From Oscillospiraceae bacterium (GTDB lineage Bacteria; Bacillota; Clostridia; UBA1381): a DNA stretch of 49,950 bases. The DNA is taken from positions 1-49,950 of the forward strand of contig JAFLUC010000006.1 in NCBI GenBank assembly GCA_022509005.1, read 5' to 3'. The translations under genes and the position numbers were made by a program. Below, piece after piece: positions 27,089 through 49,950 of the stretch (its first letter is position 1; each line of letters opens with the position of its first letter). Under the pieces are notes generated by a model that saw only the letters and a list, made by a program, of their open reading frames with translations, had not been told where the DNA came from and searched no databases.

Positions 27089-28615
27089 TTAAGCAGGAAT
27101 GAACAGCTTAGTTCCTTTTGTTATTTTATTTTCTTCTATACTATTATACTTCACGATCTTATCCTGCGGTATGGCGTAGCGCTTTGCAATATCCCAAAGG
27201 CTGTCGCCCTCTCTTGCAAAGCAGATCACAATACCATGCTTTGCTTCTCTATCTGCACTTTCTATATCGGTTATATTTTGGAATTCAACCTTCTCAGTGA
27301 GCTTGCCGTCAATTGCAAGCAGGCAGCGCAGCTCGAGCTCTCCCGATGAATTGAGATTGTAGCTTACGTGCTTAACCTCAGCCTTTAGCTCGATATCTCC
27401 CTCACCTCCTGCATTCTCGCATTCAATCATATAGGAGAACGGGATATCCTTTTTTATACTGTAAACAGGATTCTCTGCATTGTTTGTAAGATACAGCACA
27501 TATGCTTCAATTCTCCCCTCACATATCAGTCTGCTGTGCTGCAGCTCTGATTTTGTGATAACAGAATTCGTCATTACGTTATATATACCGCCCACCTCCG
27601 GCGCATTGGACGGAAAATCAATAATCTCGCGTATTGTATTCTGCGATATTGGTCTTTCCACTATATTATTTAACATAATCGTTTCCTTTTTACATTCCGT
27701 TCCTGAATACGGGATGAAGCAGTCTTCAAGAGTTTCAAGTTCTACTGGTTCACTGCCTCTTACCGACGCTGAAATGTCAATATCAATAGCAGCTATGCGC
27801 ATATCACCATCGCTGTCCTTTTCAGCCTCAGTCATTACTCCGACCACATTATAATCAATATCGCAGATCGTGTCTTCACGCACGTTCTCAGCGTCAAGAA
27901 CCTCTGTGAACGGCACCTCCGCCTCGATAAACTTTATTTCATTATCATCATCGGTATACAGAATACATATCCCGACGTTTCCCTTAACAATGATTTTACC
28001 TGTCACGGTTTTATGCTCGGTATCTGAGATTTTTACATCTGTCTTTAAAATCTCGCCTATAGAGCTTTGTCCCGAAGGTACTTCAAGTGTTTCCTTTAGT
28101 GTGAAAGTATGCTCTGAAATATCTGATACATTTTCAAAGGTCATAACAGCCATGCTGCATTCTGCCGTGTTCTCCTCTACGCCGGTACATATATCATGGT
28201 CCTCTGTGCGGCAAACCTCATAGTCGAGATGAATTATCGCGCGCAGACGTAGCTTTCGCGAATTAACAGCGCTGAATTCAACCCTCTCAACTGATGCGTC
28301 AGCAATAACTGTAGCATCCGGTGACGCTCCGTTAGCGTCAACAGTCTGCCTGAATTCCATCGAAGTTAATATGCTCTTAATGCGCTCATTTTCCTTATCC
28401 GGCACATATAATACCTTATATTCAGCTCTGCCGCTTATTACAAGCCTGCCGTTTTCTATGTACTTATCTGTTATATACGCGTCCGCGTCAACCTGAAGTA
28501 TTTTCAGAATATCCGGCTTTATGTCAGGTACATTTACATCGCCTTCAGCCATAGCCTGAGTTGTCCCCTTGATTATCGTACTGCAAAGACGTACAGTTTC
28601 TTTTTTTAACTCCAT
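27089..28615 (-). CDS. sipL: SipL-like spore coat morphogenesis protein (DUF3794/SPOCS repeats plus LysM)
   Basis: A 508-residue protein with the architecture of SipL, which in Clostridioides binds SpoIVA and is needed for spore coat localisation. There are repeated DUF3794 (SPOCS) domains through most of the length (e.g. VPDIKPDILKILQVDADAYI, FIPYSGTECKKETIML) and a C-terminal LysM domain (about 460-508: FAREGDSLWDIAKRYAIPQD). No signal peptide, as expected for a mother-cell cytosolic protein. I start at the ATG behind TGGAGGACTAAG; the frame is open 63 codons further but without a site. A sigma-E-like promoter lies upstream, and spoVM lies divergently within 500 bases. Assignment rests on domain order and sporulation context. 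Confidence 0.82.
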   Translation of the reverse strand: MELKKETVRLCSTIIKGTTQAMAEGDVNVPDIKPDILKILQVDADAYITDKYIENGRLVISGRAEYKVLYVPDKENERIKSILTSMEFRQTVDANGASPDATVIADASVERVEFSAVNSRKLRLRAIIHLDYEVCRTEDHDICTGVEENTAECSMAVMTFENVSDISEHTFTLKETLEVPSGQSSIGEILKTDVKISDTEHKTVTGKIIVKGNVGICILYTDDDNEIKFIEAEVPFTEVLDAENVREDTICDIDYNVVGVMTEAEKDSDGDMRIAAIDIDISASVRGSEPVELETLEDCFIPYSGTECKKETIMLNNIVERPISQNTIREIIDFPSNAPEVGGIYNVMTNSVITKSELQHSRLICEGRIEAYVLYLTNNAENPVYSIKKDIPFSYMIECENAGGEGDIELKAEVKHVSYNLNSSGELELRCLLAIDGKLTEKVEFQNITDIESADREAKHGIVICFAREGDSLWDIAKRYAIPQDKIVKYNSIEENKITKGTKLFIPA

Positions 28616-28725: not shown

Positions 28726-28754
28726 CACAACTCTGCACTATACCGCATATTATA
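28726..28754 (+). promoter_or_regulatory. Candidate sporulation (sigma-K/E-like) promoter of the small protein and spoVM
   Basis: CACA (28726-28729), 16 bases and CATATTATA (28746-28754) fit the Bacillus sigma-K pattern mACm-N16-CATAnnnTA. sigma-E has a related -10 box, so the factor is not certain. Confidence 0.4.
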
Positions 28755-28777: not shown

Positions 28778-28948
28778 ATGGGCAATAAATGTATGTGTAT
28801 GCACGGCGCTTCGAAGGCTGTCGGACTTTCGCTGCTCACATTCAGCATAGGAGTTTTAGCAGGTCTCTTGTGTCCGCTGTATGTCCTTGCGATTGTCGAG
28901 CTTTTCGTCCTTGCGCTGTTAGGTTATCTGTGTCTGCTTAAATTTTAA
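28778..28948 (+). CDS. Small membrane protein, 56 residues, next to spoVM
   Basis: No family recognised. The start ATG follows AAAGGCGG; the longer frame upstream starts before the candidate promoter and lacks a site. The protein has a short N-terminus with three residues of metal-ligand type (CMCMH), then two hydrophobic stretches (GLSLLTFSIGVLAGLLCPLY and VLAIVELFVLALLGYLCLLK) that could form a membrane hairpin. The sequence ends in KF. Location between sipL and spoVM, with a candidate sporulation promoter, suggests a role in the spore or forespore membrane, but that is inference. Confidence 0.6.
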   Translation: MGNKCMCMHGASKAVGLSLLTFSIGVLAGLLCPLYVLAIVELFVLALLGYLCLLKF

Positions 28949-28950
28949 GG

Positions 28951-29035
28951 TGAACAACTTGCTTGCAAGTTGTAGCATAGTGAACAATCTGCTTGCAGAT
29001 TGTAGCATAGCAAAACGAAGTTTTGCGTAGCGTAG
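28951..29035 (+). repeat. Tandem hairpin repeats in the spoVM leader
   Basis: Two 30-base units (28951-28980 and 28981-29010) are followed by a related 25-base unit (29011-29035). Each contains a hairpin and then a linker: (T)GTAGCATAG in units 1 and 2, CGTAGCGTAG in unit 3. The hairpins are CAACTTGC/GCAAGTTG, CAATCTGC/GCAGATTG and GCAAAAC-GAA-GTTTTGC. Between units 1 and 2 the only differences are two base pairs changed on both sides of the stem. The array stops five bases before the spoVM ribosome site. A partial copy lies before murB (49898-49950). Confidence 0.9.
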
Positions 29036-29051
29036 AAAAGGGGGTATATCT

Positions 29052-29120
29052 ATGAAAATTGTAGTTAAACGCGTACCGAAGGGACTTTCAGGTATTATCA
29101 AGCTGATTTTCGGATTTTAA
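29052..29120 (+). CDS. spoVM: Stage V sporulation protein SpoVM (22 residues)
   Basis: A 22-codon gene, far below ordinary gene-finding limits. It begins MKIVVKRVPKGLSGIIKL and ends with IFGF. It aligns without gap over the first 21 residues with Bacillus SpoVM (26 residues): M-K at the start, basic residue 7, Pro9-Lys10, Leu12, Gly14-Ile15 and Gly21 are shared, as is the amphipathic helix with a kink-making Pro9. SpoVM inserts into the outer forespore membrane, senses its curvature and recruits SpoIVA. The ribosome site AAAGGGGGT lies eight bases before ATG. It lies close to sipL, whose product also binds SpoIVA. The stop is directly followed by a terminator. Confidence 0.85.
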   Translation: MKIVVKRVPKGLSGIIKLIFGF

Positions 29121-29125
29121 TACAT

Positions 29126-29159
29126 AACAAAACGACACAGCGCGCTGTGTCGTTTTGTT
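29126..29159. terminator. Bidirectional terminator between spoVM and rnjA
   Basis: A perfect palindrome of 34 bases, with long arms AACAAAACGACACAG meeting at a GCGC centre. Its T-rich ends serve both convergent genes. Confidence 0.85.
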
Positions 29160-29161
29160 AT

Positions 29162-30829
29162 TCAAATTTCCTCTATTATCGGAAGTATCATCGGATTACG
29201 CTTTGTTGATTCGTAAATATATCTTGCTACGCTTGACCTTACATTATTCTTCATCATGGTCCAGTCAACATTACGTCTTGCAAGGCAGTCCTCAACCGCG
29301 GCTGCCGCCTTATTCTTAACTTCATCAATCAGCTGTTCCGCCTCTCTTACATAAACGAAACCTCTTGAGATTACATCCGGTCTTGAGAACATTTCACGGT
29401 TATCATTATCAATTGTTATAACTATGATTATGAGGCCATCCTCCGCAAGATGCTTTCTGTCCCGAAGCACTATATTTCCTACATCTCCCACGCCAAGACC
29501 ATCAACCAACACCTGACCTGAGGGAACTGTTCCGCTGATTTTAGCCGAATCCGCATCAATTTCAAGCACCGTTCCGTTGCTTAGTACAAAAGATCTTTCC
29601 TCCGGTACTCCCACCTGCGCTGCAAGATGCTTATGGAGCACAAGATGACGATGTTCTCCGTGAACAGGAATAAAGAACTTAGGCTTTGCGAGACCGAGCA
29701 TAAGCTTCAGCTCCTCCTGACATGCGTGACCGGAAACATGGACGTCCATAAGTGACTTATATATAACCTCCGCTCCTATTTTAAACAGCTCATTAATGAC
29801 TGTTGACACGGGCTTTTCATTTCCAGGAATAGGCGAAGCGGAAATAATTATAAGATCATCCTTCGTTATTTCAACCTTCCTATGGTCTGAGAATGCCATT
29901 CTTGTGAGTGCGCTCATAGGCTCACCCTGAGAGCCTGTTGTTATTATTACTACCTGATTCGGATTGTATTTCTTTATGCTGTCAATATTTATGAGTACAC
30001 CCTCAGGAACCTTCATATATCCGAGCAGAATTGATATTTCAACAATATTCTCCATACTCCTGCCTGAAACCGCTACCTTGCGGCGGTTCTTTGCGGCAGC
30101 ATCAATAATCTGCTGAACTCTATGAACATTTGAAGCAAAAGTTGCAACTATTATACGCTTATTGCAGCCCTTGAATATGCGGTCGAATGTATCGCCTACG
30201 CTTTTTTCACTCATTGCATAGCCCGCCCGCTCAACATTTGTCGAATCCGACATAAGCGCAAGAACTCCTTCATTTCCGAGCTGGCCTATACGCGCAAGAT
30301 CTATCATTTCACCCACAATAGGCGTTGTGTCTATCTTCCAGTCACCGGTATGCAGAATAGTTCCGACCGGGGTTCGCAGCGCTATTGCCACAGAGTCGGC
30401 AATAGAATGATTTGTCGCTATAAACTCAACCGAAAAATACTTGCTCACCTCGACAATATCCCCCACTCGCGTACGCTTGAGCGAGACGCGCGATACAAGA
30501 TTGTGCTCTTTGAGCTTGTGCTCAACAAGCCCGAGAGTGAGTCTTGTGCCGTAAACAGGCACATTTATTTCCTTAAGAAAATACGGCAATCCGCCGATAT
30601 GGTCCTCATGACCATGGGTCAGAAAAATACCCTTTATTTTCTGGGCATTCTTAACAAGATATGTTATATCGTTAATTACCATATCCACGCCCGGCATATC
30701 GTTATCCGGGAATGCCATACCGCAGTCAATAATAACAATCTCGCTGCTATACTCGAAGGCAGTCAAATTTTTTCCGATCTCATCAAGACCGCCTATCGGT
30801 ATAATTCTCAATTTTTTAGTTTTTGCCAT
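29162..30829 (-). CDS. rnjA: Ribonuclease J
   Basis: Endo- and 5'-3' exoribonuclease for mRNA turnover and rRNA maturation. The 555 residues start at MAKTKKLRIIPIGGLDEIGK behind AGGAGGTTATA; the upstream open stretch lacks a site. Metallo-beta-lactamase motif HGHEDHIGG, then TNHSI, HTGDW and the beta-CASP motifs (DSTNVERAGYAMSE; GSQGEPMSALTRMA) and SGHACQEELKLM, PVHGEHRH. A C-terminal RNase J-specific domain is present. Only one RNase J copy lies here, so J1 versus J2 is not decided. Own promoter and terminator. Confidence 0.95.
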   Translation of the reverse strand: MAKTKKLRIIPIGGLDEIGKNLTAFEYSSEIVIIDCGMAFPDNDMPGVDMVINDITYLVKNAQKIKGIFLTHGHEDHIGGLPYFLKEINVPVYGTRLTLGLVEHKLKEHNLVSRVSLKRTRVGDIVEVSKYFSVEFIATNHSIADSVAIALRTPVGTILHTGDWKIDTTPIVGEMIDLARIGQLGNEGVLALMSDSTNVERAGYAMSEKSVGDTFDRIFKGCNKRIIVATFASNVHRVQQIIDAAAKNRRKVAVSGRSMENIVEISILLGYMKVPEGVLINIDSIKKYNPNQVVIITTGSQGEPMSALTRMAFSDHRKVEITKDDLIIISASPIPGNEKPVSTVINELFKIGAEVIYKSLMDVHVSGHACQEELKLMLGLAKPKFFIPVHGEHRHLVLHKHLAAQVGVPEERSFVLSNGTVLEIDADSAKISGTVPSGQVLVDGLGVGDVGNIVLRDRKHLAEDGLIIIVITIDNDNREMFSRPDVISRGFVYVREAEQLIDEVKNKAAAAVEDCLARRNVDWTMMKNNVRSSVARYIYESTKRNPMILPIIEEI

Positions 30830-30874
30830 TATAACCTCCTGTTTTAAGATTTCCGAACATAGTAATACATTTAT

Positions 30875-30904
30875 ATTATACCACAAACAGCAATAATTAG
30901 TCAA
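30875..30904 (-). promoter_or_regulatory. Promoter of rnjA
   Basis: On the - strand, TTGACT (30904-30899), 18 bases and TATAAT (30880-30875). Confidence 0.7.
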
Positions 30905-30914
30905 GGATTTTACC

Positions 30915-30946
30915 ATAAAAAATCAACCCCTGCTAAGGGGTTGATT
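30915..30946 (-). terminator. Terminator after the LtaS-like gene
   Basis: AATCAACCCC (30921-30930) with GGGGTTGATT (30937-30946). On the - strand a TTTTTT run follows the stem. Confidence 0.85.
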
Positions 30947-49897: not shown

Positions 49898-49950
49898 CTA
49901 CGCTACGCAAAACTTCGTTTTGCTATGCTACAACTTGCAAGCAAGTTGTT
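49898..49950 (-). repeat. Second copy of the hairpin repeat, in the murB leader (cut by window end)
   Basis: Read on the - strand, these 53 bases are identical to one 30-base unit of the spoVM leader array minus its first two bases (hairpin CAACTTGC/GCAAGTTG, then TAGCATAG), joined to the third unit (GCAAAAC-GAA-GTTTTGC, then GTAGCGTAG). The CT/AG arms identify it as the unit 1 version; the unit 2 version is missing. The copy ends six bases before the murB ribosome site. More units may lie beyond the window. Confidence 0.9.

Follow-up and report, generated by a model that had tools for sequence, protein, structure and literature searches.

Judged by its sequence, the 22-codon frame at positions 29052-29120 of the window (the whole 49,950-nucleotide stretch of DNA analysed) is a genuine, tail-less spoVM gene of a known kind. 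Together with an uncharacterised gene directly upstream, it appears to form a bicistron that is conserved. This partner, a small membrane-protein gene absent from the original prediction, tells more about the locus than spoVM itself. Hairpin proteins of this type are encoded alongside SpoVM in much of the clostridial sample. We consider it probable that the two genes constitute a mother-cell sporulation operon encoding a true SpoVM and a membrane-hairpin accessory of the SpoVM/SpoIVA base layer.

Identification of the spoVM gene

The gene is read on the plus strand from the ATG at 29052 to the stop at 29120 and encodes MKIVVKRVPKGLSGIIKLIFGF, in agreement with the position and the 22 codons originally predicted. 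The preceding ribosome-binding site, AAGGGGGT (29038-29045, plus strand), was read from the sequence 6 bases 5' of the ATG; it had been called ideal, but is better described as good, with one G-U pair against the usual anti-Shine-Dalgarno sequence, while many relatives carry AAGGAGG. A perfect 17-bp palindrome lies 3' of the spoVM stop at 29124-29161, between the convergent spoVM and RNase J genes and assigned to neither strand, and is a candidate bidirectional terminator; its RNA fold (−23.6 kcal/mol, z −7.4) was matched in stability by 0 of 200 shuffles, but a consensus scan did not include it in its terminator list because the T-run sits within the stem.

Profile searches of the peptide against NCBIfam returned SpoVM_broad as the only family match (E = 0.0026, 17.7 bits, positions 1-21 of 26), and no match was obtained against Pfam. 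The score lies below the curated SpoVM_broad cut-off of 31 bits, which agrees with the earlier remark that the gene is easily missed. Since the SpoVM of a genome identified as C. difficile (L253) also falls short of it with 27.8 bits, we read this cut-off as an annotation threshold and not as a defining trait of SpoVM.

Comparison with the SpoVM proteins of B. subtilis and C. difficile (NF033436), to which the peptide aligns end-to-end over the 21 matched positions, revealed a shared MK start, Pro9-Lys10, Ile15 and an amphipathic helix; for residues 10-21 the hydrophobic moment amounts to 0.50, a value reached by 3.5% of 2000 shuffles. In contrast to these proteins, the window peptide comprises 22 rather than 26 residues and lacks the basic tail, as the original prediction had pointed out, carries Lys instead of Ile at position 6, scores under the curated cut-off, and is encoded next to RNase J and sipL genes rather than rpmB. 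According to Ribis et al. 2017 (PMC5607322), K2 and I15, both carried by the window peptide, are among the residues required in B. subtilis SpoVM, while Ile6 is required for SpoIVA binding. Lys6 is shared by the other 13 aligned members of the genus, and position 6 is variable across clostridia; we take Ile6 to matter for function and not to define the family.

Searching with the peptide yielded matches at E ≤ 10 in 35 of 61 genomes (its own and 60 relatives); within the genus, 14 of 16 genomes, its own included, carry the frame. Among 30 aligned homologues M1, P9, K10 and G14 are invariant, so that the diagnostic Pro9-Lys10 pair named at the outset is found in 30 of 30, 23 have a length of exactly 22 residues, and 29 match SpoVM_broad. 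Pro9 is reported in PMC5607322 as the sole fully conserved SpoVM residue. Comparison of the window gene with 13 genus members gave pS 0.716, pN 0.155 and a pN/pS of 0.22; the frame is under purifying selection. A better spoVM elsewhere in the genome was sought, and the one other match (E = 2.3) contains an internal stop, leaving 29052-29120 as the only credible copy. That the frame merely resembles SpoVM by chance, as its sub-threshold NCBIfam score and the missing Pfam match might suggest, is refuted by this conservation; together with the pN/pS ratio, the invariant Pro9-Lys10 and the fixed place after the partner gene, it leaves such a reading with a negligible probability.

The proposed spore-former status of the source organism is very likely by gene content, because its genome encodes a full-length SpoIVA (E = 4.1e-213) and the window contains sipL (SPOCS domains and LysM; 27089-28615, minus strand, 508 aa from the ATG at 28615), with matches of the surrounding ORF to PF12673 (E = 1.7e-48) and LysM (E = 2.1e-8). 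SpoIVA matches were found in 57 of the 61 genomes. In nine genomes of the window's genus, SpoIVA carries 14 private fixed residues relative to 11 relatives (L265-L284), including L488 and L490. By a numbering that relies on equal protein length, these two lie near G486, the reported interaction site with SpoVM Ile6; they may or may not compensate for Lys6 of SpoVM, and the proximity is suggestive.

A membrane-hairpin gene upstream of spoVM

The gene at 28778-28948 (plus strand) encodes a 56-residue protein, predicted to be a two-helix membrane hairpin and an operon partner of SpoVM belonging to a CD25622-like family. Each of the 30 loci read has a homologous ORF ahead of spoVM in the same orientation (the window's own and 29 others, out of the 35 genomes with a peptide match; five further genomes are not included). 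These ORFs span approximately 48-61 residues and end 12-189 nt before spoVM. In window numbering, M1, G25 and P33 are invariant in the alignment of the 30 proteins, and K13, G16, F22, G29, E41, C52 and L53 are nearly so. An AlphaFold model of the 56-residue protein predicts helices at 8-31 and 34-55 with the turn at P33 (pLDDT 76.8, pTM 0.46). Neither Pfam nor NCBIfam provided a family for this protein, nor a match above chance level for any of the 30 members; the best sub-threshold hits look like generic hydrophobic similarity and were rejected as family names.

The intergenic gap measures 103 nt in the window and 12-43 nt in 27 of the 29 other loci, the remaining two having 79 nt (L026) and 189 nt (L021). 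It contains three short hairpins (28954-29026, plus strand; RNA fold −29 kcal/mol, z −2.2) formed by TTGTAGCATAG repeats, of which a further exact copy is located at 49923-49933; the repeat is possibly a small mobile element. An Rfam search of the gap and its flanks gave one match, at E = 0.21 and far under the gathering score.

Upstream of the hairpin gene lies a candidate mother-cell promoter of the sigma-E/K type (28727-28753, plus strand), with AC at 28727 and CATATTAT at 28746-28753. The corresponding motif, AC-N15-19-CATAhhrT, which resembles mother-cell sigma-E/K promoters, was present in 23 of 30 regions covering 110 nt 5' of the membrane gene, the same 30 sequences on which it had been defined, as compared with a mean of 0.74 and a maximum of 4 in dinucleotide shuffles, and in 16 of 600 random windows.

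The convergent RNase J gene (29162-30916, minus strand; TIGR00649, 637 bits) is the neighbour of spoVM in four further members of the genus as well (L004, L006, L008 and L010). The divergent sipL gene was considered as a conserved link to spoVM and rejected, as this adjacency occurs in the window only among 65 close-relative loci, which derive from fewer genomes and include some short flanks.

Distribution of the gene pair

Scanned against 245 Clostridia genomes, a profile of the 30 hairpin proteins (A2) gave 41 matches at E ≤ 1e-3, one per genome. In 32 cases, a SpoVM profile match follows in the same orientation at a distance of 13-106 nt, and reading of the remaining nine loci revealed a SpoVM-like ORF downstream in each, several lacking the usual P-K; thus, all 41 A2 matches directly precede a SpoVM-like ORF. 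Reading of further spoVM loci revealed a similar hairpin ORF, missed by A2, in many families. An alignment of 23 such divergent proteins from other families (A4) matched A2 in a profile-profile comparison with a probability of 95 and a score of 37.95, whereas reversed A4 scored 11.96 and 0 of 200 block shuffles reached the observed value (maximum 25.4). A4 returned no family name from Pfam or NCBIfam.

The merged hairpin profile (A5, 44 rows) matched 177 of 391 genomes of the class at E ≤ 0.01, and the merged SpoVM profile (A6) matched 206 at E ≤ 0.02. Both were found in 131 genomes, SpoVM only in 75, the membrane gene only in 46 and neither in 139. Among the 100 best A5 matches, 95 have a SpoVM-like ORF directly downstream (77 by profile and 18 by earlier matches or reading), while the five others all belong to genus g46 of family group f23. 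The order and strand of the two genes are identical in every paired locus read.

A5 matches at E ≤ 0.001 were obtained in 39 of 299 genomes drawn from the phylum. In each of the 18 loci read outside the class, the hairpin gene is followed by a convergent rpmB, and in 16 a SpoVM-like ORF lies in between. As the order hairpin gene, spoVM, rpmB is thus seen outside the class, the arrangement looks old. SpoVM-like peptides with an N-terminal extension (MSKKKEPK...) were observed at loci L290 and L297.

Relation to CD25622 of Clostridioides difficile

One A5 match (G349, E = 3.3e-5) is a 50-residue protein whose gene is followed by a 26-residue SpoVM and then by convergent rpmB. An identical copy of this protein is encoded in all 8 genomes of the genus, each with spoVM and convergent rpmB after it, and matches occur in 43 of 71 genomes of the family. 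CWB2 domains are abundant in the family group (92 matches in G349), and another genome of the genus, G438, contains a 100% match to a 203-residue piece of Cwp6 (PDB 5j72), presumably a C. difficile protein. By its length, gene order and proximity to rpmB rather than by accession, the 50-residue protein of this putative C. difficile is almost certainly CD25622.

According to PMC5607322, CD25622 comprises 50 residues, is cotranscribed with spoVM near rpmB, and is described as 'unique to the Peptostreptococcaceae'; C. difficile spoVM is reported there to be under sigma-E control. CD25622 resembles the window's 56-residue protein in being small and encoded directly 5' of spoVM in the same direction; whereas that paper confines it to a single family, matches to the profile used here span 177 genomes of the class. 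Since A5 detects the 50-residue protein with none of its 44 rows taken from the family group concerned, the published restriction looks wrong on sequence grounds. Within the literature searched, which covered few subscription journals, no description of the wider CD25622-like family was found, nor any naming of CD25622 beyond this one paper.

The paper further reports that an insertion in CD25622, polar on spoVM, caused a 3- to 5-fold loss of heat resistance, equal to that of a spoVM insertion, and proposes an unknown redundant factor. Because the CD25622 insertion is no worse than the spoVM insertion, the partner has little visible effect in C. difficile, and these published data suggest that its role there is minor.

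Occurrence of one gene without the other

Of the 206 genomes of the class in which SpoVM was matched, 75 gave no match to the partner, so that the latter is not required everywhere. In the loci read, spoVM stands alone in family groups f10, f28 and f56 and at most loci of f43. In f56 (L143, L144 and L164), an unrelated 87-residue membrane protein is encoded 86-114 nt 5' of spoVM.

The reverse group of 46 genomes with the membrane gene only, a minority of whose loci were read, combines genomes that truly lack SpoVM with others whose SpoVM has diverged, and perhaps with some false A5 matches close to the threshold. Of the genomes that have the membrane gene but yielded no SpoVM profile match, 18 were checked, 13 of them from f23 and five from elsewhere: the gene is convergent with rpmB in all 18, no SpoVM-like ORF was seen between the two, and SpoIVA is kept in 17. 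Within f23 (L219, L226, L227, L233-L235, L238, L240 and L244-L248), where the hairpin gene lies by rpmB and spoVM is absent, SpoIVA was matched in 12 of 13. At three loci of family group f67 (L221, L224 and L229), the SpoVM-like ORF lacks Pro9.

These unpaired genes bear on two alternative explanations. The hairpin protein could be a spore-membrane protein of independent function, placed under one promoter with spoVM only because the two are required simultaneously, and have no physical partnership with SpoVM, as would fit both its persistence in several families without a recognisable spoVM, and the converse in others, and the equal phenotypes of the polar CD25622 mutant and the spoVM mutant (PMC5607322); the nearly exclusive pairing among the best A5 matches and the constant order and strand speak against such independence, to which we assign a distinctly lower, yet still appreciable, probability than to a shared base-layer function. 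Alternatively, the hairpin protein could be a second, partly redundant holder of SpoIVA able to replace SpoVM, which would explain the lineages that lost SpoVM. The retention of SpoIVA and the conserved position beside rpmB in the genomes checked would agree with this, as would the redundant factor proposed for C. difficile, but the effectively double CD25622-spoVM mutant was no sicker than the spoVM mutant according to the same paper, the opposite of what redundancy predicts, and we consider such a replacement unlikely.

Proposed function of the operon

Under the preferred two-gene operon reading, the hairpin gene and spoVM would be expressed together in the mother cell during sporulation. 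By family analogy, the amphipathic helix of SpoVM, kinked at Pro9, would come to lie on the convex outer membrane of the forespore and help SpoIVA, encoded elsewhere, to wrap the spore, whereupon SipL, encoded next door, would tie in the coat. The hairpin protein would most likely reside in the same membrane as SpoVM, its two ends reaching into the mother-cell cytoplasm, and there may be an accessory that anchors or stabilises the SpoVM/SpoIVA base layer; both this location and this role are inferred. Lys6 of the window SpoVM counts against the mechanism, given that Ile6 is needed for SpoIVA binding in B. subtilis (PMC5607322).

According to PMC5607322 and PMC8265636, CmpA, SsdC and SpoVQ, other membrane or checkpoint factors of the coat base, are likewise mother-cell factors tied to SpoVM/SpoIVA. 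Set beside the hairpin protein by description, SpoVQ differs in having a single membrane segment at its N-terminus besides a soluble portion, whereas the hairpin protein consists of two helices only.

Implications for SpoVM in clostridia

Galperin et al. 2012 (PMC3533761) failed to detect SpoVM in a number of clostridia and raised the question of distant versions. Versions of this kind can be reached through the upstream gene; they include ones missed by the first SpoVM profile and also SpoVM-like peptides without the supposedly universal Pro9. In its broadest form, the idea would be that a phylum-wide hairpin family is a standing SpoVM partner and part of the coat base layer, holds SpoIVA beside rpmB where SpoVM has been lost, and serves as a signpost to diverged SpoVM peptides that earlier surveys missed; taken as a whole, we regard this as a doubtful, speculative extension. 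As regards annotation, even the SpoVM of C. difficile seems to escape the curated cut-off. Because there are lineages that possess SpoIVA and the upstream gene with no recognisable SpoVM, the published question as to which other factors hold SpoIVA in place in clostridia becomes directly testable.
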